This document shows, one piece after another, positions 4,750-15,467 of a stretch of DNA of 64,000 nt. This DNA is from Oxalobacteraceae bacterium CAVE-383 (GTDB taxonomy: Bacteria > Pseudomonadota > Gammaproteobacteria > Burkholderiales > Burkholderiaceae_D): the NCBI GenBank assembly GCA_004134995.1, contig REGP01000003.1, forward strand, positions 62,001-126,000. The letters run 5' to 3'. The notes under the pieces were generated by a model. That model worked only from the letters and a program-made list of their open reading frames with translations. It was not told where the DNA came from and ran no database searches. Both the position numbers and the translations under genes were made by a program. Within the stretch, counting starts at the first letter, position 1, and each line of letters starts with the position of its first letter.

Positions 4750-5919
4750 ATGAATGCAGGAGGCGCCAACCAGCCGCGCGAATTTCCGCCGTCCCCGGCG
4801 ATCGAGGAAGCGCCTCAGGCGCATCCGCACCCGGCGGCAACCGTGGATGCCAGGCGCCCCGAGGTCGACGTGCGCGGCATGCTGTTGCTGATCCTTACTA
4901 TTCTCGCGGTTTTGTTCGCCCTGCGTTCGGCCAAGGAATTCATCATTCCGCTGGTGGTGTCGGTCATCCTGGCCTACGCGCTCGATCCCGTGGTCAGCTA
5001 TCTGCAGAAATACAGGTTGCCGCGCACCGCCGGCGCCGCGCTGGTCATGCTGGCGCTGGTCGTGGCGCTCGGATCGGGTGTGATGGCATTGCGCGGCCAG
5101 GCTGAATCCATCGTCAACCAGTTGCCGGAAATCGCGCTCAAGATCAGCAGGACCATCGGCAATATCCACGACGACGATTCGGTGATCGACAAGCTGCAGC
5201 GGGTCGCCAAGGTGATCGAGAAATCGTCGCAGGAAACCAATGTCAGGCGCATCGTGGTCGACCGGCCCGAGAACCGCGTCAGCGATCTGCTGCTGTCCGG
5301 ATCGGTCGGCCTGATGACGTTCCTTGGCCAAACGGTGATGGTGCTGTTCCTGGTATTTTTCCTGCTGCTGTCGGGCGACACCTTCCGCCGCAAATTCATC
5401 AAGCTGGCCGGCCGCACGCTGAGCGAGAAAAAAATCAACGTGCATATGCTGGATGAAATCAATAAATCGATTCAGCGTTATATGGCGATGCTGCTGGTGA
5501 CCAATGCCGGGCTGGCGTTCGCCACCTGGATCGTCTTCCGCCTGATCGGCCTGGAAAACGCGGGAACCTGGGCGGTGGCGGCCGGCGCGCTGCACATGGT
5601 GCCGTACTTCGGCCCGGTGATCGTGGCCGTGTGCACCGGTGTCGCGGCGTTCCTGCAATTCGGCACCTGGGGTCCCGCATTGCTGACCGCCGCGGCATCG
5701 CTGTCCGTTGCCACGCTGATCGGCACGCTGGTGACGACCTGGATGACCGGCCGCATCGCCCGCATGAACGTGGTGGCGGTATTTATCTCGCTGCTGCTGT
5801 TCACCTGGATCTGGGGCGTATGGGGCACCTTGCTGTCGATTCCGATTACCGTGATTACCAAGGTCGTCTCCAACCACATCGAGTCGCTGCATCCCCTGGC
5901 GGAGTTTTTGGGCGAATGA
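4750..5919 (+). CDS. AI-2E family transporter / PerM-like permease
   Basis: A 389-residue membrane protein of the UPF0118 (AI-2E transporter, PerM) family. A proline-rich cytoplasmic N-terminus (about residues 1-37) is followed by two hydrophobic helices, a long polar stretch (about residues 115-185) and a C-terminal membrane bundle. The family motif region near residue 280 (HMVPYFGPVI) is present. Members export diverse solutes, so the family name should not be read as proof of autoinducer-2 transport. The gene stands alone, between the divergent MFS gene and uvrD. Confidence 0.85.
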   Translation: MNAGGANQPREFPPSPAIEEAPQAHPHPAATVDARRPEVDVRGMLLLILTILAVLFALRSAKEFIIPLVVSVILAYALDPVVSYLQKYRLPRTAGAALVMLALVVALGSGVMALRGQAESIVNQLPEIALKISRTIGNIHDDDSVIDKLQRVAKVIEKSSQETNVRRIVVDRPENRVSDLLLSGSVGLMTFLGQTVMVLFLVFFLLLSGDTFRRKFIKLAGRTLSEKKINVHMLDEINKSIQRYMAMLLVTNAGLAFATWIVFRLIGLENAGTWAVAAGALHMVPYFGPVIVAVCTGVAAFLQFGTWGPALLTAAASLSVATLIGTLVTTWMTGRIARMNVVAVFISLLLFTWIWGVWGTLLSIPITVITKVVSNHIESLHPLAEFLGE

Positions 5920-5950
5920 CGCCGGGCTGCGCACCCAAGGCGCCATACGT

Positions 5951-5993
5951 ACGCGTATTGGAACGCGCGCTGCATACGCGCATTACAAACGCG
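5951..5993. repeat. Array of four ACGCG motifs upstream of uvrD
   Basis: ACGCG occurs at 5951, 5963, 5976 and 5989, i.e. every 12-13 bases, in the gap between the perM-like gene and uvrD. It is followed by an AT-rich patch near 6000. It could be a regulator-binding array, but no known operator is recognised. Confidence 0.35.
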
Positions 5994-6053
5994 CACATAC
6001 GATATATAACGAATCAATGGAGATTCCCCACGGTCGGCAAGCTGCAGGCGGCT

Positions 6054-6059
6054 TATAAT
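6054..6059 (+). promoter_or_regulatory. Perfect -10 box abutting the uvrD start
   Basis: TATAAT ends six bases before the uvrD ATG at 6066. If it is used, the transcript would begin at or next to the A of the ATG, giving a leaderless mRNA. This fits the lack of a Shine-Dalgarno sequence at the usual spacing. The -35 region (about 6031-6036) is poor, which lowers confidence. Confidence 0.35.
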
Positions 6060-6065
6060 CCCAAG

Positions 6066-8345
6066 ATGCAAAATCTTCTTCATAACCTGAATCCCGAGCA
6101 ACTGGCGGCGGTGACGCTGCCGGCACAGCCCGCACTGATCCTGGCGGGCGCCGGGTCCGGCAAAACGCGCGTGCTGACCACCCGCATCGCCTGGCTGATC
6201 CAGACCGGGCAAGTATCGCCGTCCGGCATATTGGCCGTCACCTTCACCAACAAGGCCTCCAAGGAAATGCTGGCGCGGCTGTCCGCGATGATGCCGATCA
6301 ATACGCGCGGCATGTGGGTCGGCACTTTCCACGGTCTGTGCAACCGCCTGCTGCGCGCGCACTACAAGGACGCGGCCTTGCCGCAAACCTTCCAGATACT
6401 GGATTCGGGCGATCAGTTGTCGATGATCAAGCGCCTGCTGAAATCGCTCAACGTCGACGACGAGAAATATCCGCCGCGCAATCTGATGTATTTCATCAAC
6501 AGCGCCAAGGACCAGGGCTTGCGCGCCAAGGACGTCGAAACCTACGACGATTACAACCGCAAGATGGTCGAGCTGTACGACATCTACGACCAGCAATGCC
6601 AGCGCGAAGGCGTGGTCGATTTCGCCGAACTGCTGCTGCGCACTTATGAATTGCTGACGCGCAACCAGCCGCTGCGCGAACATTACCAGGGCCGCTTCCG
6701 GCATATCCTGGTGGACGAATTCCAGGACACCAACGATCTGCAGTACAAGTGGCTGAAACTGATGGCCGGCCCGCACGGCGCGGTGTTCGCGGTCGGCGAC
6801 GACGATCAGAGCATCTATGCGTTTCGCGGCGCGAACGTCGGCAATATGGCCGCCTTCGAGCGCGAATTCAATGTGCAAAACCTGATCAAGCTGGAGCAGA
6901 ACTATCGCTCGCACGGCCATATCCTGGATACCGCCAATACGCTGATCGCCAACAATACCAAGCGGCTCGGCAAGAATCTGCGGACCGACGCCGGGCATGG
7001 CGAGCAGGTGCGCATTTTCGAATCGACCAGCGATCTGCAGGAAGCGCAATGGGTGATCGAGGAAGTCAAAAGCCTGATCGACGAAGGCGGCTTGCGCAGC
7101 GAGATCGCCTTGCTGTATCGCTCCAATGCGCAGTCGCGGGTGCTGGAGCATGCCTTGTTTTCGGCCGGCATCGCGTATCGCGTCTATGGCGGGCAACGCT
7201 ATTTCGAGCGGGCCGAAGTCAAGCATGCGATCGCCTATCTGCAATTGATCGACAATCCGCATAACGATTCCGCCTTTTTGCGCGTGGTGAATTTCCCGAC
7301 GCGCGGCATCGGCGCGCGTTCGATCGAACAGCTGCAGGATGCGGCAAGCCGGCACGGCATTTCCTTGTACGCGGCGGTGCCGCATGTGGCCGGCAAGGCG
7401 GGTTCGCTGCTGGCCGGGTTTGTCAAACTGATCGAAAGCACGCGTTTCGAGTCGCCCCATGTGCCGTTGCCGGAACTGGTGCAGATCGTCCTCGACGGCA
7501 GCGGCCTGATCACGCATTACCAGAACGAAAAAGAGGGCGCGGACCGGATCGAAAATCTGGAGCAGCTGGTCAGCGCCGCGACCCTGTTCGTCTCGGAAGA
7601 GGGTTTCGGCGTGAATGCGCCGGCATTGCTGGGGCCGGCGGCGAACGCGCCCGCGGGCCCGGCGGTCACTGTCGCCGACGGCGTTGAAATACTGGATGCC
7701 GACGCGCCGCTGCCGGCGGTGATGTCGCCGTTGTCGGCGTTTCTGTCGCACGCGTCGCTGGAAGCCGGCGACAACCAGGCCCAGGCCGGCCAGGACGCGC
7801 TGCAATTGATGACCGTGCATTCGGCCAAGGGGCTGGAGTTCGATACGGTGTTCATCACCGGGCTGGAAGAGGGCTTGTTCCCGCATGAGAACAGCGCCAA
7901 GGAAGAAGGCGGCGTGGAAGAAGAGCGGCGCCTCATGTACGTGGCGATCACGCGCGCGCGCAAACGCCTGTACATGAGCTTTTCGCAGACCCGCATGCTG
8001 CACGGCCAGACCCGCTACAACATGCGTTCGCGCTTTTTCGATGAGTTGCCGGAAGACGCCGTGAAGTGGCTATCGCCGAAGGCGCAGCAGCCGCATCACT
8101 GGTTTGCGCATCCGAAGGCCGCGTGGCTGGAGGAAACCCCGGCAGCCAACCGCATCGCGGCCAGCCTGGCCAGGAAAGACATCGGCTGGCGCATCGGCGA
8201 AAGCGTCGCGCATGCCAAATTCGGCGAAGGCGTGATCGTCAACATCGAAGGCGAGAGCGGCAGCGCGCGGGCGCATATCAATTTCGGCCGGCACGGAATG
8301 AAGCTGCTGGATCTGAGTGTGGCAAAGCTGGACAAGATGGCCTGA
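6066..8345 (+). CDS. uvrD: ATP-dependent DNA helicase II, UvrD
   Basis: A 759-residue superfamily-1 3'-5' helicase acting in nucleotide-excision and mismatch repair. It carries the Walker A motif GAGSGKT near residue 32, motif Ia TFTNKAS, motif II DEFQDTN, GDDDQSIYAFRGA, and the late motifs TVHSAKGLEF and VAITRARKRLYM. A C-terminal Tudor-like domain (AKFGEG... to the end) favours UvrD over Rep. The frame is open further upstream, but homology begins at the ATG at 6066 (MQNLLHNLNPEQ), so I start there. The gene ends against the hairpin element at 8354. Confidence 0.95.
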   Translation: MQNLLHNLNPEQLAAVTLPAQPALILAGAGSGKTRVLTTRIAWLIQTGQVSPSGILAVTFTNKASKEMLARLSAMMPINTRGMWVGTFHGLCNRLLRAHYKDAALPQTFQILDSGDQLSMIKRLLKSLNVDDEKYPPRNLMYFINSAKDQGLRAKDVETYDDYNRKMVELYDIYDQQCQREGVVDFAELLLRTYELLTRNQPLREHYQGRFRHILVDEFQDTNDLQYKWLKLMAGPHGAVFAVGDDDQSIYAFRGANVGNMAAFEREFNVQNLIKLEQNYRSHGHILDTANTLIANNTKRLGKNLRTDAGHGEQVRIFESTSDLQEAQWVIEEVKSLIDEGGLRSEIALLYRSNAQSRVLEHALFSAGIAYRVYGGQRYFERAEVKHAIAYLQLIDNPHNDSAFLRVVNFPTRGIGARSIEQLQDAASRHGISLYAAVPHVAGKAGSLLAGFVKLIESTRFESPHVPLPELVQIVLDGSGLITHYQNEKEGADRIENLEQLVSAATLFVSEEGFGVNAPALLGPAANAPAGPAVTVADGVEILDADAPLPAVMSPLSAFLSHASLEAGDNQAQAGQDALQLMTVHSAKGLEFDTVFITGLEEGLFPHENSAKEEGGVEEERRLMYVAITRARKRLYMSFSQTRMLHGQTRYNMRSRFFDELPEDAVKWLSPKAQQPHHWFAHPKAAWLEETPAANRIAASLARKDIGWRIGESVAHAKFGEGVIVNIEGESGSARAHINFGRHGMKLLDLSVAKLDKMA

Positions 8346-8353
8346 GGCTAAGG

Positions 8354-8466
8354 GTGCGCATGGCCGTAGCGGCGTCCGGCCGGAGAGTATTGCCTCCTCC
8401 TCTCGGCTTCAAACGTTCGTCGAAGCCAATACCCTCCGGCCGGCCGCCACTAACGGCCACGCTCAC
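8354..8466 (-). repeat. Hairpin element A with conserved 33-nt loop
   Basis: Imperfect inverted repeat: left arm 8354-8392, right arm 8427-8466, loop 8393-8425. The loop is identical to that of element B at 10354-10386, while the stems are unrelated. Three arm differences are G-U compatible if the minus strand is transcribed but A-C mismatches on the plus strand. The element starts 10 bases after the stop codon of the minus-strand gene ending at 8477. No U-tract follows, so it is not a classical intrinsic terminator. In the minus-strand RNA the loop carries a GGAGGAGG run. Confidence 0.8.
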
Positions 8467-8476
8467 GCCTCGGGTT

Positions 8477-9256
8477 TCAGGCTTCCACGTCCACCGCCGG
8501 CGCCGGCTTCCCGAAAATCTCGATGTAAGTCGCGTAAAACGAGCAGTACATCGCCACCGAGAGGCTGATCGACAGCGGCATCAGGATGATGATGGGCAGG
8601 AACAGGCTGCCGGTCAGCTGCGCCAGGACCCGGCTGACCAGGAACGGCAGAATCACGCCGAGAGCGATCCATCCCAGCGCATACAGCAGGAATGCCCGGC
8701 CGGCGCGGAGCACCGCGAAGAAGCTGTAGAACAAGGCTTTCGGCAGCGGCATCTGCTGCCAGGCGATCAGCGGCGCCGCGAACCAGAACGCCATCGCCGC
8801 CGGTATATACACCAGCGCGCCGAAAAGCACCGTCAGCAAGATATGCGATTGCTGTATTTTGGCCGGATCGGGATCGCCGTCCGACGTCAGCAGTTGCCAC
8901 AGCGTGCCGTCGTCAACCAGGGCGGCTGCGCCGAAGGCCAGCAGCGCAGCAAGCAGATAGAGCATGCCGAGCATCAGCAGCGTTTTGCGCTGCGGCGAAC
9001 GGAAGGCGGTCAGCAACAGGCTGGGAAAGACGCGCAGTTCGTTTTCAACGTTGAGGCTGGCCTGCATGAAGGTCATCGCGAATACCGGAATCAGGATCAA
9101 CTGCGCCAGCTGCCCGACGATGGGGACGATGCCGATGATCACCATCATGAAAAAGTACAGGATGAACAGGGTCGTCAGTTCGGCCGGTTTTTTGGCGAAG
9201 ATGGCGAACCCTTGCTTGATCCAGCGCCAACCGGTTGTCGCAGGCAATTTTTGCAT
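8477..9256 (-). CDS. BPSS1780-family membrane protein
   Basis: A 259-residue integral membrane protein with about six hydrophobic segments and a short soluble N-terminus. It resembles the BPSS1780 family, found in Burkholderiales with no established role. The frame stays open upstream through thrB in another reading frame, but the ATG at 9256 begins the conserved part (MQKLPATTGWRW) and lies 8 bases after the thrB stop. It is therefore probably co-transcribed with thrB. Hairpin element A follows its stop codon. Confidence 0.75.
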   Translation of the reverse strand: MQKLPATTGWRWIKQGFAIFAKKPAELTTLFILYFFMMVIIGIVPIVGQLAQLILIPVFAMTFMQASLNVENELRVFPSLLLTAFRSPQRKTLLMLGMLYLLAALLAFGAAALVDDGTLWQLLTSDGDPDPAKIQQSHILLTVLFGALVYIPAAMAFWFAAPLIAWQQMPLPKALFYSFFAVLRAGRAFLLYALGWIALGVILPFLVSRVLAQLTGSLFLPIIILMPLSISLSVAMYCSFYATYIEIFGKPAPAVDVEA

Positions 9257-9264
9257 AGTGAGGC

Positions 9265-10230
9265 CTAATAAAGTGCCGGTGGAGGAGCCGCCGCGCGCAG
9301 GCGCAGTATGCGTTCGAAATGCACCGGGTCGTGCGGCGTGAGCATTTCGGCGTCGCGCGGCAGATAAAAATCGTATAGGCGCGACAGCCAGAAGCGGAGG
9401 GCCGCCGCGCGCAGCATGGTCTGCCAGGCCTGCGTTTCGGCCGCGCTGAACGGGCGCACGGCATGGTAGGCGTCGAGCATGGCGCGTACGCGCGTTTCCT
9501 GCAATTGGCCGTTGCCGTCGTCGATGCACCAGTCGTTGACGGTCACCGCCAGATCGAACAGCCAGGTGTCGCAGCCGGCGAAATAAAAATCGAAAAAGCC
9601 GGTCAGGCGGTCGCCGTCGAACATGACGTTGTTGCGGAACAGATCGGCGTGAATTGGACCAAAATGATTCTTCAGCAGTTCCGCATGCAGGCCGCCGGCC
9701 GCGAAGGCCTGCTGGAACGCCATTTCGTCCAGCAGCAGGCGTTGCGCATCGGCCGGCAAATGCGGCAGCACGATCGGCGCGGTTTCGCGCCACCATGGCA
9801 GGCCGCGCAGATTGGGCTGGCTCAGTTCGAAATCGCGCGCCGCCAGATGCATTTTCGCGAGCATGGCGCCGACCGCCGCGCAATGCGGGGCCTGCGGCGC
9901 CATCTGATGCGCGCCTTCCAGCTTGGTGACGACCGAAGCCGGCTTGCCGTTGAGCTCATGGATGATGGCGCCGTCGCGATTGGCGATCGGTTCCGGCACC
10001 AGCACGCCGTGTTGCGCCAGATGGCGCATCAGATGCAGGTAGAACGGCAATTCTTCGGCGCGCAGTTTTTCGAACAGCGTCAGGACGTATTCGCCGCTGT
10101 CGGTGCGGATGAAGAAATTGCTGTTTTCGATGCCGGACGAAATGCCCTTGATCGCCTGCGCCTGGCCCAATGAAAACTGGGTGATCCAGCCCGAGAGCTG
10201 CTCCAGGCTGACGCTTGTGAATACTGCCAT
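9265..10230 (-). CDS. thrB: Homoserine kinase ThrB (aminoglycoside-phosphotransferase fold)
   Basis: A 321-residue homoserine kinase of the type used by many proteobacteria other than enterics. It has a choline/aminoglycoside kinase fold and phosphorylates homoserine for threonine synthesis. The catalytic loop [14 protein letters not shown] and the Mg-binding [11 protein letters not shown] are intact (residues about 190-220). It is followed 8 bases later by the BPSS1780-type gene. The upstream gap (10231-10433) holds hairpin element B but no clear promoter. Confidence 0.93.
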
Positions 10231-10317
10231 GGGAAGATTTTAAAAAATCGGTGTCGAGAAGGCCTTTTCAGGCCGGCTTATGTGTTGTCGGATGCACGCC
10301 GTTCGTTAAACTGTGCC

Positions 10318-10424
10318 GCGAAGCGACCGCGCCGCGCCCACCTCGGGGGCGGGCCTCCTCCTCTCGGCTTCAAACGTTCGTCGAAGAACCCGCCCCCGAG
10401 GTGGGCGCGGCGCGGTCGCTTCGC
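10318..10424 (-). repeat. Hairpin element B: perfect 36-bp inverted repeat, same 33-nt loop
   Basis: The arms 10318-10353 and 10389-10424 are perfectly complementary over 36 bp and very GC-rich. The 35-base interval holds the loop 10354-10386, identical in all 33 positions to element A's loop at 8393-8425, plus two extra bases. The stem sequence is unrelated to that of element A. The element begins 9 bases after the stop codon of the minus-strand DUF2782 gene, the same position relative to a gene as element A. No U-tract is present. Confidence 0.85.
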
Positions 10425-10433
10425 TCCGCCGGA

Positions 10434-10838
10434 TCAGTTACCGGCGGCCGGGTTGTTTTTCGGTGCTTTTTTGCCGCCCCAGTCGAATTCCTTGATGTTC
10501 CAGGTCGGATTGGTTTGCGGCGGGCTGTCGGCCGCGCCGGTCACCGAGGTGCCGATGGTTTTCGGGCGCAGGTAATAGGTGCTGTTCTTGCTCTCGACCT
10601 TGACCTCGGTCACCTTGCCGCCTTCGCGCTTCTCGGTAATGGTCTTTTCACGCTGCTCTTGCGGTGTCTGGATGGTTACCGAAGGCGCTTCGACTTCATT
10701 CAGGTTTTCCATTTCAGGCGGTGGCGGCACAGGCGCGGCCGCAGGCGGCTGGCCAGGTTGTTGCGCGGCAACCCAGGCCGGCACGGCGCCGGCAGCGATA
10801 CACAGAACGGCGAACGTACAGATTTTGGTGAGTTTCAT
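10434..10838 (-). CDS. DUF2782 family exported protein
   Basis: A 134-residue protein with a clear signal peptide (MKLTKICTFAVLCIAAGA..., probable cleavage after AWVAA near residue 25). A Pro/Ala-rich linker follows, then a charged domain (VTIQTPQEQREKTITEKREG..., about residues 52-105) typical of DUF2782. It is probably periplasmic or outer-membrane associated; its function is unknown. The ATG at 10838 is chosen because it begins the signal peptide; the frame is open upstream. It lies between thrB and the LOG gene on the same strand. Confidence 0.8.
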   Translation of the reverse strand: MKLTKICTFAVLCIAAGAVPAWVAAQQPGQPPAAAPVPPPPEMENLNEVEAPSVTIQTPQEQREKTITEKREGGKVTEVKVESKNSTYYLRPKTIGTSVTGAADSPPQTNPTWNIKEFDWGGKKAPKNNPAAGN

Positions 10839-10969
10839 AATCTTCTTGTAGGACGTGGGTGGGTTTGCGTTGAAACCGACGCCGTATTCATCATAGCGCG
10901 CCGCCCGCAACAGTGTTGTCGGACATTGTAGCAAACCTGAGCCGGATTTCCTGAAGATTGCCGCCGCCT

Positions 10970-11707
10970 TTACAACAGTTCGCCGGTTTTGGCTTCCTTG
11001 CTCGGGGCGGTATCGTCGCCCGCCTCGTAAAAGCGCAGGATTGCGGCAAGAATCTGCTCCGGATCGTCGATGACCTGGATCAGATCCAGGTCGTCCGGAT
11101 GGATCATGCCGTCGGCGGCCAGCGTATCGCGGAACCAGTCCAGCAGGCCGTTCCAGAATATGGCGCCGACCAGAATCACCGGAATGCGCTGGATGGTGCC
11201 GGTCTGGATCAAGGTCAGCACTTCGCTGAGCTCGTCGAGCGTGCCGAAGCCGCCCGGCATGACCACGTATGCGTCGGCATAACGCACGAAAGCCACCTTG
11301 CGCGCGAAGAAATGGCGGAAATTGATCGCGATATCCTGCCATTTGTTATTGCCCTGCTCGTGCGGCAGCAGGATATTCAGGCCGACCGACGGCGATTTTC
11401 CTTCGTAAGCGCCCCTGTTGGCGCCTTCCATGATGCCGGGCCCGCCGCCCGACAGCACCGCGAATCCGGCGTCCGACAGGCGCCGCGCGATCTGCGCGCA
11501 AAGCTCGTAATAGTGATTGCCTTCCTTGATGCGGGCCGAGCCGAAAATCGAAACCGCCGAGGGCAGCTCCGACAGACGTTCGGTGGACTCGATAAACTCT
11601 GCCATAATCGTCAGCAGATGCCACGACTCGCGCGCCTTCTTGGTCGTTGCGCGTTCGACGTCCTTTACCTCGCGCAGCCGCAACACCCTTTTACCGTTTA
11701 TTTCCAT
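10970..11707 (-). CDS. LOG family protein (TIGR00730-type Rossmann-fold nucleotide hydrolase)
   Basis: A 245-residue protein of the LOG / 'lysine decarboxylase-like' family, whose studied members remove ribose 5-phosphate from nucleoside monophosphates. The two signature motifs GGGPGIMEGANRGA and MPGGFGTLDE are intact. A TTG two codons upstream is possible, but the ATG at 11707 has an AAGGTG ribosome site 8 bases away and is preferred. That ATG directly abuts the divergent polA ATG (CATATG). True lysine decarboxylase activity is not expected. Confidence 0.88.
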   Translation of the reverse strand: MEINGKRVLRLREVKDVERATTKKARESWHLLTIMAEFIESTERLSELPSAVSIFGSARIKEGNHYYELCAQIARRLSDAGFAVLSGGGPGIMEGANRGAYEGKSPSVGLNILLPHEQGNNKWQDIAINFRHFFARKVAFVRYADAYVVMPGGFGTLDELSEVLTLIQTGTIQRIPVILVGAIFWNGLLDWFRDTLAADGMIHPDDLDLIQVIDDPEQILAAILRFYEAGDDTAPSKEAKTGELL

Positions 11708-14512
11708 ATGCAAAACACCTTGTTATTAGTTGATGGTTCCAGTTATCTCTACCGCGCATTTCATGCATTGCCGGATATGCGCAATGCCGAAGGCGCGCCG
11801 ACCGGCGCCCTGTACGGCATGATCAACATGCTGCGCCGCTTGCGCAGCGATTACCCCGCAGCTTACATCGCTTGTGTATTCGACGCCAAGGGAAAGACTT
11901 TTCGCGACGATCTGTATACCGAATACAAGGCCACGCGCAAATCCATGCCGGAAGATCTGGCATTGCAGATCGAACCGATCCATGCAGCCGTCAAGGCGAT
12001 GGGCTGGCCGATCCTGATGGTCGAAGGCATCGAGGCCGACGACGTGATCGGCACCCTGGCCGTGCAGGCGGTCGGGCACGGCATGCAGGCCGTGGTGTCG
12101 ACCGGCGACAAGGACATGGCGCAACTGGTCAACGAACACGTCACGCTGATCAACACCATGAGCAACGAAACGCTGGACCGCGCCGCCGTCATCGCCAAGT
12201 TCGGCGTGCCGCCGGAGCGCATCGTCGATTACCTGAGCCTGATCGGCGATACGGTCGACAACGTGCCGGGCGTCGAAAAGGTCGGCCCGAAGACAGCGGT
12301 CAAATGGCTGACGCAATACGATTCGCTGGACGGCGTCATGGACAACGCCGCGGCCATCGGCGGCGTGGTCGGCGAAAATCTGCGCCGCGCCCTCGGCTGG
12401 CTGCCGCAGGCCAGGGTGCTGGTGACGATCAAGACCGATTGCGATCTGACAAAGCATATGGTGTCGATCCCGGAATCGCTGACGGTCCAGCCGCAGGACA
12501 CGCAGGCGCTGACCGAATTGTTCACCCGCTACAACTTCAAGACCTGGCTGCGCGAACTGGGTAATGCCGCATCGGCTGGCGCGGCATCGGCCAAAGCGGA
12601 CGCGCAGGGCGGGCTGTTCGAAAATGCCGGCAATGGGACCAATGCGGCCGAAGGCGCGGCCGGGGCTTCCGTCGCCCTTTCCGCGCCGGCGCAGGTTTTG
12701 CCCGCGGCCGTCTATGAAGCCGTCACCACCGAAGCGCAACTGGACGCGTGGCTGCAGAAAATCGACGCTGCGCCGCTGACCGCGCTGGATACCGAAACCA
12801 CCTCGCTCAATTCGATGCAGGCGCGCCTGGTCGGCATTTCGCTGTGTTGCGAGCCGGGTCTGGCGGCGTATATTCCGGTCGGCCACCGTTCGCAGGAAGG
12901 CGGCCTGGCGCAGTTGCCGCTGGAGACCGTGCTGGCCAGGATGAAGCCGTGGCTGGAAGATGCGGGCAAGCCGAAGCTCGGCCAGCATATGAAATACGAC
13001 AGCCACATCTTCGCCAACTACGGCATCGCGGTGCAGGGCGTGGCGCACGATACGCTGCTGCAATCCTACGTTTTCGAATCGCACCGCACGCACGATATGG
13101 ACAGCCTGGCGCTGCGCCATCTGGACCGCAAGACCATCACCTATGCCGAAGTCTGCGGCAAGGGCGCCTCGCAGATCGGTTTCGACGAAGTCGGCATCGA
13201 GCGCGCCACCGAATACGCGGCCGAAGACGCCGAAGTCACGATGCAGCTGCATCATGCGATGTGGCCGCATATCGAACCCAATCCGAAGCTGCGCTACATC
13301 TATGAAAAGGTCGAAATGCCGACCGCGGTCGTGCTGCAGAAGATCGAGCGCAACGGCGTGCTGATCGACGCCGGCCTGCTGGCCACGCAATCCGGCGAGC
13401 TCGGCAAACGCATGCTGGAAATCGAGCAGCAGGCCTATGAACTGGCGGGGCAGCCGTTCAATCTGGGTTCGCCCAAGCAGCTGGCCGAAATCCTGTTCGG
13501 CAAGATGCAGTTGCCGGTGGTCAAAAAGACCCCGGGCGGCACGCCCTCCACCGACGAGGAAGTGCTGGCCAAGCTGGCCGAGGATTATCCGCTGCCGAAA
13601 ATCCTGCTGGACTACCGCGGCCTGTCGAAACTGAAATCGACCTATACCGACAAGCTGCCGAAAATGGTCGATCCGGACACCGGCCGCGTGCATACGAATT
13701 ATGCGCAGGCGGTGGCGGTGACCGGCCGGCTGGCCTCGAACGAGCCGAACCTGCAGAACATTCCGATCCGCACCGCGGAAGGCCGGCGCATCCGCGAGGC
13801 ATTTATCGCAGCGCCCGGCAATCTGATTGTCTCGGCCGATTATTCGCAAATCGAATTGCGCATCATGGCGCACATTTCCGGCGACGAGAACATGCTGCGC
13901 GCCTTCGCCGACGGCGAAGACATCCACCGCGCCACCGCCGCCGAAATCTTCGGCGCCGCGCTGACCGAGGTCACCAGCGAGCAGCGGCGCTACGCCAAGG
14001 TCATCAATTTCGGCCTGATCTACGGCATGAGCGCCTTCGGCCTGGCCGGCAATCTCGGCATCGAACGTTCGGCCGCGCAGATGTACATCGACAAGTATTT
14101 CATGCGCTTTTCGGGCGTGCGGCAATTCATGGACAACACCCGCATCGAGGCCAAGGCGAACGGCTATGTCGAAACCGTTTTCGGGCGCCGCCTGTGGCTG
14201 CCGGAAATCAATTCGCCGAACGGCCCGCGCCGCGCCGGCGCCGAGCGCGCCGCGATCAATGCGCCGATGCAGGGCACCGCGGCCGATCTGATCAAACTGG
14301 CGATGGTGGCGGTGCAGGACTGGCTGGAGGGGGAACGATTGGGTTCCAAAATGATCATGCAGGTGCACGATGAACTGGTGCTGGAAGTGCCGCAGTCCGA
14401 ACTGGCCCTGGTGCGGGAGCGGCTGCCGGCGCTGATGGCCGGCGTGGCGCAGCTGAAAGTGCCGCTGATCGCCGAAGTCGGCGAGGGCAAGAATTGGGAT
14501 GAGGCGCATTGA
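11708..14512 (+). CDS. polA: DNA polymerase I
   Basis: A 934-residue protein with all three PolA domains. The 5' nuclease spans about residues 1-300 (LLLVDGSSYLYRAFHA; STGDKDMAQLV). The 3'-5' exonuclease, about 330-520, keeps the DxE pair in LDTETTSLNS. The family A polymerase domain, about 540-934, has SADYSQIELRIM, RRYAKVINFGLIYG and QVHDELVLEVP. It fills gaps in repair and Okazaki-fragment processing. No strong Shine-Dalgarno precedes the ATG, and its promoter must lie inside the divergent LOG gene. Confidence 0.96.
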   Translation: MQNTLLLVDGSSYLYRAFHALPDMRNAEGAPTGALYGMINMLRRLRSDYPAAYIACVFDAKGKTFRDDLYTEYKATRKSMPEDLALQIEPIHAAVKAMGWPILMVEGIEADDVIGTLAVQAVGHGMQAVVSTGDKDMAQLVNEHVTLINTMSNETLDRAAVIAKFGVPPERIVDYLSLIGDTVDNVPGVEKVGPKTAVKWLTQYDSLDGVMDNAAAIGGVVGENLRRALGWLPQARVLVTIKTDCDLTKHMVSIPESLTVQPQDTQALTELFTRYNFKTWLRELGNAASAGAASAKADAQGGLFENAGNGTNAAEGAAGASVALSAPAQVLPAAVYEAVTTEAQLDAWLQKIDAAPLTALDTETTSLNSMQARLVGISLCCEPGLAAYIPVGHRSQEGGLAQLPLETVLARMKPWLEDAGKPKLGQHMKYDSHIFANYGIAVQGVAHDTLLQSYVFESHRTHDMDSLALRHLDRKTITYAEVCGKGASQIGFDEVGIERATEYAAEDAEVTMQLHHAMWPHIEPNPKLRYIYEKVEMPTAVVLQKIERNGVLIDAGLLATQSGELGKRMLEIEQQAYELAGQPFNLGSPKQLAEILFGKMQLPVVKKTPGGTPSTDEEVLAKLAEDYPLPKILLDYRGLSKLKSTYTDKLPKMVDPDTGRVHTNYAQAVAVTGRLASNEPNLQNIPIRTAEGRRIREAFIAAPGNLIVSADYSQIELRIMAHISGDENMLRAFADGEDIHRATAAEIFGAALTEVTSEQRRYAKVINFGLIYGMSAFGLAGNLGIERSAAQMYIDKYFMRFSGVRQFMDNTRIEAKANGYVETVFGRRLWLPEINSPNGPRRAGAERAAINAPMQGTAADLIKLAMVAVQDWLEGERLGSKMIMQVHDELVLEVPQSELALVRERLPALMAGVAQLKVPLIAEVGEGKNWDEAH

Positions 14513-14585
14513 ACGCAGTTGCCGCAGGTCGGGTAATATTCCGGGCAACAACAGTATGAGTTGAATCAACCTACGGAGGAATGAC

Positions 14586-15467
14586 ATGCAAGATCTGAAA
14601 GACGAAGTCGATACCCTGGCCCCGAAAACCACCCTGTTCGACGACGGCGACCGCCGCAGCTTCCTGAAAGTGGCGCTCGGCACCGGTTTTGCCGCGGCCG
14701 TGATGCCGGTCACCGCGCAAACCATCCATACCGATACCGCCGGCCTGACCGCCGGCGAAGTGAAGATCAATGTCAACGGCTATGACGTGCACGCCTACCG
14801 CGCGCAGCCCGAAGGCAAAAAGGATTTGCCCGTCGTCATCGTGATTTCCGAGATTTTCGGCGTGCACGAGCATATCGCCGATGTGGCGCGGCGCTGGGCC
14901 AAGCTGGGCTATCTGGCGATCGCGCCGGACCTGTTCCAGCGCCAGGGCGATCCCGCCAAATATGAAAGCGTGGCCGAATTGCAGGCACAGCTGATTTCCA
15001 AGGTGCCGGACGCGCAAGTGCTGGCCGACCTGGACGGCGTGACGGCCTGGGCCAAGGACCATGGCGGCAATACCGCCAAGCTGGCCGTTACCGGTTTCTG
15101 CTGGGGCGGGCGCTTCGTCTGGCTGTATTCGGCGCACAATCCGAAGGTCAAGGCCGGCGTGGCATGGTACGGCAAGCTGGTGGTCGACAAATCGGCGCTG
15201 CAGCCGGTGCCGCCGGTGGAAATCGCGCCGACGCTGACGGTGCCGGTATTGGGCTTGTACGGCGGCAAGGACGGCGGCATTCCGGTGGCGACGGTGGACC
15301 AGATGAAAGCGGCGCTGGCCAAAGGCCGCAGCCACTCGGAAATCGTGGTGTATCCCGAAGCCGGCCATGCCTTCAACGCCGACTACCGCCCAAGCTATAT
15401 CGAATCGGCCGCCAAGGATTCCTGGCAGAAGGCGGTTAATTGGCTTAAGCAGCATGGGGTGAGCTAA
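14586..15467 (+). CDS. Dienelactone hydrolase family protein with Tat-like N-terminus
   Basis: A 293-residue alpha/beta-hydrolase of the dienelactone hydrolase family. The nucleophile motif is GFCWGGRF (Cys), the active-site glutamate lies in SEIFGVHEH and the histidine in EAGHAFNADY. The N-terminus carries a twin-arginine motif (DRRSFLK, residues 22-28) followed by a hydrophobic stretch ending VTAQT, suggesting Tat export. A strong GGAGG ribosome site precedes the ATG. The real substrate is unknown. A T8 run directly follows the stop, then hairpin element C. Confidence 0.85.
   Translation: MQDLKDEVDTLAPKTTLFDDGDRRSFLKVALGTGFAAAVMPVTAQTIHTDTAGLTAGEVKINVNGYDVHAYRAQPEGKKDLPVVIVISEIFGVHEHIADVARRWAKLGYLAIAPDLFQRQGDPAKYESVAELQAQLISKVPDAQVLADLDGVTAWAKDHGGNTAKLAVTGFCWGGRFVWLYSAHNPKVKAGVAWYGKLVVDKSALQPVPPVEIAPTLTVPVLGLYGGKDGGIPVATVDQMKAALAKGRSHSEIVVYPEAGHAFNADYRPSYIESAAKDSWQKAVNWLKQHGVS

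Follow-up and report, generated by a model that had tools for sequence, protein, structure and literature searches.

Extragenic palindromes with GTAG or CGTC tags, their dimers, the repetitive extragenic palindrome (REP) doublets known as REPINs, and terminal inverted repeats (TIRs) linked to Y1 transposases have all been described (PMC3733652, PMC2817692, PMC3116915, PMC8266576). In most cases published REPs lie 3' of genes, and an RNA role is possible for many of them (PMC3733652). According to the same source, which refers to a stem-loop survey (PMC1590033), Bordetellae and others have REP-like families that lack a tag; it also describes TIR families in Stenotrophomonas that are self-complementary. 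Here we analyze two hairpins, A and B, in a 64,000-nucleotide stretch of Oxalobacteraceae bacterium CAVE-383 (contig REGP01000003.1, positions 62,001 to 126,000), which we call the window. They carry the same core on unrelated stems and are probably two copies of an interspersed, non-coding, REP-like mobile palindrome.

By the usual definition, an extragenic palindrome has a conserved sequence; here the conserved part is a small core, flanked on each side by some 30 to 50 bp of freely varying stem. Stems of this kind would conceal the family from ordinary repeat finders. In the open-license literature that we searched, we found no account of a family with a constant core and variable stems.

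Elements A and B share one core

A sequence-only reading of the window had reported that two hairpins with unrelated, self-complementary stems have an identical 33-nt loop. We confirmed the identity: the two 33-mers (Table 1) match exactly, nothing else in the window resembles them at up to three mismatches, and 100 dinucleotide shuffles gave no counterpart. Both elements fold far below shuffled sequences on the minus strand (A, -88.8 kcal/mol, z = -10.1; B, -101.8 kcal/mol, z = -12.5). The constant 33 nt are not a loop throughout, as part of them is paired in the minus-strand fold of A and B. The stem is longer in A than in B but imperfect, with mismatches and two gaps. The minus strand of A (8346-8472) is the better folder by 19 kcal/mol, the plus strand reaching -69.7 kcal/mol; five stem mismatches are G-U on the minus strand, three are G-U on the plus strand, and five are neither. 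As the reading had noted, no T-tract follows the hairpin at A or B on either strand, so these two copies do not have the form of intrinsic terminators. Positions 5000-15000 of the window contain no Rfam match above the gathering score.

We refer to the core of A and B as core type T1. The host genome (G000; 4.12 Mb in 11 contigs) has not two but 16 copies: 15 within three mismatches of a 25-base part of the core, and L001, in which the core is changed. A long hairpin is present at 15 of the 16, some of them heavily mismatched. The T1 stems are mutually unrelated, except for a similar set at L006, L007, L008, and L014. By eye, the block next to the loop changes in step on its two sides in other T1 copies, with CTTC or CTCC opposite GGAG and CCCC opposite GGGG. 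One copy, L017 (L017:1470-1560, contig C7), is a weak T1-like hairpin inside a MacB-like open reading frame (ORF), between the ABC and periplasmic domains. The T1 core was found in none of 99 other genomes at up to two mismatches of the 25 bases, 33 of these genomes being from the same genus. Exact-string scans for the core in viral and genome collections, in which near relatives may be left out, gave no match.

A second and larger core type

The closest ortholog fetched for the locus is L046, from Herbaspirillum sp. metagenome-assembled genome (MAG) RYN_592, with a kinase 83% identical to that of the window. At site A it carries a different hairpin, with 41 perfect base pairs and the core GTGAGGTAAAAGGGGGAGG...GGAGGACACGAACGGA, which we call T2. 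The host genome has about 90 T2 units, 80 being found with a left-half motif and 93 with a right-half motif (91 of these at up to two mismatches). G017, which we took to be the same genome as the source of L046 (G100) from identical contigs and places, has 19 matches. Five other genomes of the genus have one left-half match each, about the level of a reversed control pattern; the match in G008 is a true unit.

We then asked how much of the strong inverted repeat content belongs to the two types. In the window and 400 kb of G000, in stretches chosen for known T1 copies, 15 of the 17 inverted repeats scoring at least 17 are T1 (6) or T2 (9); the remaining two are a classic terminator and one other hairpin. 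Two of three strong inverted repeats in a further 220 kb of G000 are also T1 or T2. No inverted repeat scoring at least 16 was seen in 154 kb of G101, and G025 and G030 (100 kb each) have two and three, none with a T1 or T2 core. An Rfam scan of a 4.6-kb stretch with two T2 units and one T1 unit gave 17 matches, all below gathering, the best being long microRNA-type hairpins.

A small constant core with free stems explains the earlier impression of unrelated stems with an identical loop. Modules such as GAGGCTGTTGC and GTCAAGGCGCC are common to many T2 stems, and 5 of 15 T1 arms (L017 left out) match a T2 arm better than all 40 single-base shuffles, so T1 and T2 seem to have stem modules in common. 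The T1 core itself differs from the bipartite core GTAAAGGRGGAG ... GGRGGACAYG of T2 and of the broader family described below as R2; judged by core sequence, T1 is not a member of that family. We suggest that the window copies would nevertheless share the machinery of T2, given the like design, the like type of site, the purine-rich folded strand, and the common stem modules.

Several other hairpins were noted in passing. L152:7548-7682 (G000 contig C3) has a 49-bp stem with another loop, AATCAGGAAAATATCTCCGCGCAGCGGTATATTTTTC, possibly a third core type, and L148:7228-7356 (same contig) has an extra right-half T2 core 76 bp from a complete T2 unit. Several contigs of the G017 MAG (L127, L133, and others) terminate within T2 units, so the hairpins seem to break assemblies. 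G017 also has inverted repeats with CTACTCAGG(A/G)CGAACGG at L342:8068-8181, L346:6088-6300, and L336:17537-17596, apparently another palindrome family.

Covariation and the folded strand

To assess the T2 fold, we used 36 units with 12 bp of their stem, picked for diversity from 101 extracted, and a hand-drawn structure of 28 pairs. This structure is kept in 96.7% of cells. At 18 of the pairs, both sides change together in 150 cells, compared with 35 in shuffles and 13 to 24 when the structure is slid. Arm identity is 0.90 to 0.91 within elements and 0.51 to 0.58 between elements, while the T2 centers are 0.93 identical between units. The two arms of a single element hardly differ by gaps, with 10 gap positions against 2487 paired positions over the T2 units of G000. 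Comparable element pairs without gaps, which are not independent of one another, differ in both arms at 911 positions and in one arm at 260. Shared indels were tried as proof of arm-to-arm copying and gave no support, with 221 concordant and 694 discordant element pairs.

Within the core, two pairs of the 36 units are G-C 32 / A-U 4 and G-C 35 / A-U 1. The first of these is A-T in 38, G-C in 19, and C-G in 1 of 58 units from other genomes, for which only the open core positions count as evidence, the search pattern having fixed the neighboring bases. A purine-purine position swaps its two sides: in G000 it is G/A in 37, A/G in 30, and A/A in 1 unit, and in G017 G/A in 3, A/A in 2, and A/G in 1, with 7 of the 81 units from these two genomes not parsed. 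In the 58 other-genome units the same position is A/G in 50, G/A in 6, C/G in 1, and A/A in 1. One further core position in G000 is A/C in 33, C/A in 18, C/G in 16, and G/C in 1. A G-quadruplex in the T2 core was considered but rejected, since G017 variants such as AAAGAAGGGAGG ... GGAATGACA do not preserve the GG runs.

Wobble pairs (G-T/G-U) are concentrated on the purine-rich strand. Over 67 T2 units, 49 wobble positions favor this strand and 15 the other (26 against 5 elements, with 36 ties). For the 58 other-genome units the folded strand is favored at 104 positions against 11 (46 against 2 elements, 10 ties). P values for this bias overstate independence, because the copies are related. 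Strand-biased mutation could mimic the wobble bias, but not the both-sided changes. The bias also follows the element strand where no upstream gene runs in the same direction (12 against 4 in the '--' and '-+' contexts together, a small number).

Position relative to genes

The genes around A and B are listed in Table 1. The sequence-only reading placed both hairpins just after minus-strand stop codons. Both do adjoin one, but A sits between convergent genes, and the plus-strand helicase stop (8345) is about as near to it as the minus-strand stop (8477). The start of the helicase gene is given as supplied to the Pfam search. We take the kinase gene to be homoserine-kinase-like.

Table 1. Hairpin elements, their cores, and flanking genes in the window
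Feature	Position	Strand	Remarks
Hairpin element A (core type T1)	8351..8470	-	Arms about 8351-8395 / 8424-8470
Constant 33-nt T1 core of A	8393..8425	-	Exact identity with core of B
Hairpin element B (core type T1)	10318..10424	-	Perfect 36-bp stem 10318-10353 / 10389-10424
Constant 33-nt T1 core of B	10354..10386	-	Exact identity with core of A
UvrD/PcrA-type helicase gene	6045..8345	+	Pfam UvrD-helicase, UvrD_C; ends about 5 bp before A
Gene without Pfam match	8477..9256	-	Stop codon adjoins A; convergent with helicase gene
APH-family kinase gene	9268..10230	-	PF01636; located between A and B
DUF2782 gene	10434..10910	-	PF11191; stop codon 9 bp from B

Proximity to stop codons extends to both families. 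In 43 of 67 T2 and 9 of 16 T1 units, no more than 15 bases separate the stem end from a facing stop codon, and no more than 30 bases in 53 and 12, respectively; a facing stop codon is absent at 7 of the T2 units. Among the 69 T2 units of G000 with both neighbors called, 34 lie between convergent genes, 14 in tandem pairs running with the folded strand, 14 in tandem pairs running against it, and 7 between divergent genes. These calls were made by a simple codon score, and single calls can be wrong. For background, 46 of 389 gaps of at least 20 bp in 684 kb are convergent.

Our main reason for holding that the folded strand is important for the element, rather than for the neighboring mRNA, is the even split of T2 in tandem pairs. 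This split also tells against the earlier suggestion of an RNA belonging specifically to minus-strand 3' ends. The T1 contexts, with the folded strand as plus and L017 included, are 8 convergent, 6 same direction, and 2 opposite, too few to judge orientation; at L001 and L007 both flanking genes run opposite to the folded strand.

Empty and occupied orthologous sites

In L047 (G101), the long hairpin is absent at sites A and B, and almost no sequence separates the two convergent stop codons at A. The L313 site is empty in G101, and the L307, L190, and B sites are empty in G017 (the L190 alignment is poor). Neither arm of the hairpin was seen at the compared orthologous sites lacking it. By eye, the window, L046, and L047 all seem to keep a short hairpin that belongs to site B itself. 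Dispersed hairpins with a constant center, absent from some orthologous sites in relatives, fit the mobile hairpin family with a recognized loop and a free stem that the sequence-only reading had offered as one possibility.

Site A and the L245 site are occupied in both G000 and G017 by hairpins with unrelated stems, and at site A the cores also differ. Such double occupancy suggests hotspots or replacement of stems in place. The L249 site is occupied in both genomes with partly similar stems; it was found by looking among G017 elements and is excluded from the count of five compared sites given below. In Collimonas (L048, L050), site A has a different inverted repeat whose GTAGGGTGGGCAC-like ends recall GTAG REPs. 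This site is a possible hotspot.

Spread beyond the genus

We searched more widely with two covariance models, R1, built on T2, and R2, which is broader. In all of these searches, scoring was limited to the best 11 to 12 candidates of each genome; the copy numbers are therefore minimum values, and weak carriers may have escaped. R1 matches 4 of 392 genomes of the family: G000, G017, G008 (one unit), and G387, from another genus. R2 matches 18 of 399 genomes of the order, in 10 of 158 genera, and 4 of 369 genomes of the class, two of which (G795, G1055) belong to one family outside the order. At 20 of 32 R2 loci outside G000 and G017, the units form an inverted pair, the first on the minus and the second on the plus strand, 51 to 167 bp apart; among these 32 loci, L388 and L410 are the same place, and a few single units lie near contig ends. 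Variation in these units extends to the inner hairpin as well as the outer stem.

With paired units as queries, we found 5, 4, and 3 plasmid records, all from Variovorax except two short matches (Streptomyces, Burkholderia). Inverted unit pairs are present in the two Variovorax records that we inspected, in stretches without annotation in the collection. A T2 unit as query gave no plasmid match, and paired units gave no phage match. Searches of viral contigs gave one and then seven matching stretches (the seven include the first), of which, by eye, only L374 folds like a unit.

Transposase genes near the elements

The movement of REPs is attributed to the Y1_Tnp family. All 34 genomes of the genus have a Y1_Tnp match, one each except for two in G001, and most of these genomes are without elements. 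No inverted repeat scoring at least 13 lies within the 9 kb around the single Y1_Tnp gene of G000. Conversely, G564 and G579, with 11 units scored in each, gave no Y1_Tnp match. For 10 Y1_Tnp genes, from 8 genomes, the 1.5 kb on either side contained no R2 match. The REPtron arrangement of a Y1 transposase gene (PF01797) flanked by repeats was therefore not observed.

The units also lack the described REP tags. By eye, the T1 and T2 units inspected have no common GT(A/G)G head at the 5' foot and no unpaired CGTC at one end of a 20- to 40-bp palindrome. They do not have the conserved ends and variable middle of an inverted REPIN doublet, and no close doublets were seen in G000 except for the half unit beside L148.

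Two observations concern transposase genes with other repeats. A hairpin with a 55-bp stem and a 25-nt loop lies near a Y1_Tnp gene at L279:3495-3629 (G017), and its G000 ortholog, L278, has no such inverted repeat. Several Y1_Tnp genes from other bacterial families (L412-L420) lie close to GGGGTCAG/GGGGACAG motifs that resemble the one published for TIRtrons.

Discussion

We propose that a unit is a hairpin of roughly 100 to 130 bp, with a constant core on a long stem that is free to vary if its arms remain complementary, and that the folded and recognized strand is the purine-rich one (minus in the window). This strand would fold once single-stranded, a structure-specific protein would grip the core of the folded hairpin, and the hairpin would be copied or moved to gene ends, where it is least harmful. 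Placement beside stop codons could mean that insertion elsewhere is harmful or that gene ends are targeted. Arm complementarity would be upheld by selection on the fold, perhaps also by arm-to-arm copying, to which the indel count lends no support. Mobility would then be the cause of dispersal, and the active form would be single-stranded DNA rather than RNA.

Several results weigh against this proposal. Two of the five compared sites are occupied in both G000 and G017, above the expectation for scattered insertion, although the G017 stretches were partly chosen from contigs known to carry T2. Parsed T2 units of G000 are at most 94% identical to one another over the core plus 32 nt on either arm, which gives no hint of a very recent jump. 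The loci that we fetched revealed neither an autonomous copy nor a dedicated enzyme, and a target-site duplication could not be defined from empty sites so few and so diverged. The arms also have mismatches other than wobble pairs (53 in 67 T2, 34 in 58 other-genome, and 21 in 16 T1 units). T1 alone has 25 wobble positions against 10, but by element the split is 6 against 3 with 7 ties (sign test, P = 0.51). Homology of T1 and T2 is supported by design and common stems only. Finally, host selection for a hairpin at gene ends would likewise maintain complementary arms.

This last point leads to the explanation that the hairpins serve the host as bidirectional terminators or 3'-end stabilizers, with the core as a protein site. 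The preference for convergent pairs, the proximity to stop codons, and the very stable folds all agree with it, as do the mostly 3' location of published REPs and the possible RNA action of many of them (PMC3733652). We nevertheless consider it unlikely, given the missing T-tract at A and B, the 14:14 orientation of T2 in tandem pairs, the wobble bias that tracks the element strand even without a same-direction upstream gene (on small numbers), the absence of the long hairpin at several sites in relatives, and the short hairpin that site B seems to have of its own. Another RNA-based explanation, raised by the sequence-only reading, is a functional RNA with an exposed GGAGG that binds anti-Shine-Dalgarno sequence or an Rsm/CsrA protein. 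The folded strand of T1 in the window does contain GGAGGAGG, and T2 contains GGNGGAG, but the T2 purines are located in a structured, covarying core and not in a simple exposed loop. With T2 showing no orientation preference relative to its neighbors and no Rfam family reaching its gathering score in the searched stretch, we give this explanation very little credence.

Membership in the known REP-associated tyrosine transposase (RAYT)/REP system, as REPtrons or REPINs, would account for dispersed palindromes at gene ends and for the inverted pairs that other genomes contain; TnpA-REP is likewise known to recognize a stem-mismatched hairpin in a strand-specific way (PMC8266576). Membership is improbable, however, with no GT(A/G)G head seen, Y1_Tnp genes throughout a genus whose genomes mostly lack elements, none matched in two genomes with 11 scored units each, no inverted repeat scoring at least 13 around the G000 gene, and no R2 match near the 10 Y1_Tnp genes inspected. 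The stems could instead be local host DNA duplicated in inverted orientation during insertion, by snap-back copying of the target, which would make them near perfect and different in each copy, as they are. Neither arm was seen at orthologous sites without the hairpin, though, and many T2 stems have the family modules in common, which makes this origin scarcely credible.

Returning to the mobile palindrome, a more specific version is possible but doubtful: a new class of single-strand-recognized mobile hairpin, in which a three-dimensional, purine-rich internal motif between two arbitrary helices would be acted on by a non-Y1 enzyme and the arms regenerated by mutual copying. The motif would comprise tandem G-A pairs, as read from the core, together with an A-G pair that can be exchanged for G-A. 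Arm regeneration would let stems drift and exchange blocks while remaining paired. If the mover is not a Y1 transposase, several families of one order and one outside family would harbor a new type of small mobile element, or a small mobile element put to new use. The A-G/G-A swap and the one-sided wobble bias lead to directly testable predictions about a protein that would read the structure of a single strand, and the paired copies on Variovorax replicons offer culturable material.

Comparison with known systems

Integron attC sites are recognized by structure as a folded single DNA strand, with variable stem sequence. By analogy only, the hairpins here resemble them in the proposed structure-based recognition of one strand and in their variable stems, and differ in having no cassette array. 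Rickettsia palindromic elements (RPEs) and enterobacterial repetitive intergenic consensus (ERIC)-type repeats are small palindromic insertions, some within genes, with a sequence conserved overall. T1-like L017 is similarly placed inside an ORF, but the ends of the hairpins here are unrelated. Like miniature inverted-repeat transposable elements (MITEs), the hairpins have dispersed copies, and relatives have sites without the element; the outer ends of T1 and T2 vary, so conserved terminal inverted repeats in common with an autonomous element were not found.

GTAG REPs and bacterial interspersed mosaic elements (BIMEs), which work with RAYT (TnpA-REP), are likewise high-copy, extragenic, and palindromic, often in pairs of opposite orientation; they lie 3' of genes and between convergent genes, and one strand of the hairpin is recognized (PMC3733652, PMC2817692, PMC8266576). 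However, REPs are 20 to 40 bp with a GTAG-type head, whereas the units here are about 100 to 130 bp, with no such head seen, a constant center, variable stems, and no Y1_Tnp link found. CGTC REPs are also high-copy palindromes apparently without a dedicated transposase (PMC3733652), but their CGTC is unpaired at one end, and T1 has CGTC only within the core.

The TIRs of TIRtrons (TIRYT) are inverted repeats around Y1 genes, some self-complementary and close together in Stenotrophomonas, and their motif GGGGWSAS would be fitted by GGGGACAC in the T2 core (PMC3733652). Here, however, several Y1 genes of element-bearing genomes have GGGGTCAG/GGGGACAG motifs nearby instead, with no R2 unit closer than 1.5 kb. 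The untagged REP-like families or the Stenotrophomonas TIR families could include some R2 relatives. REPINs are inverted doublets that form hairpins with compensatory changes in their less conserved stretch (PMC3116915), a likeness to the covarying stems here. In REPINs, however, the ends are constant and the spacer is variable; here the reverse is true, and a single unit is already a hairpin.

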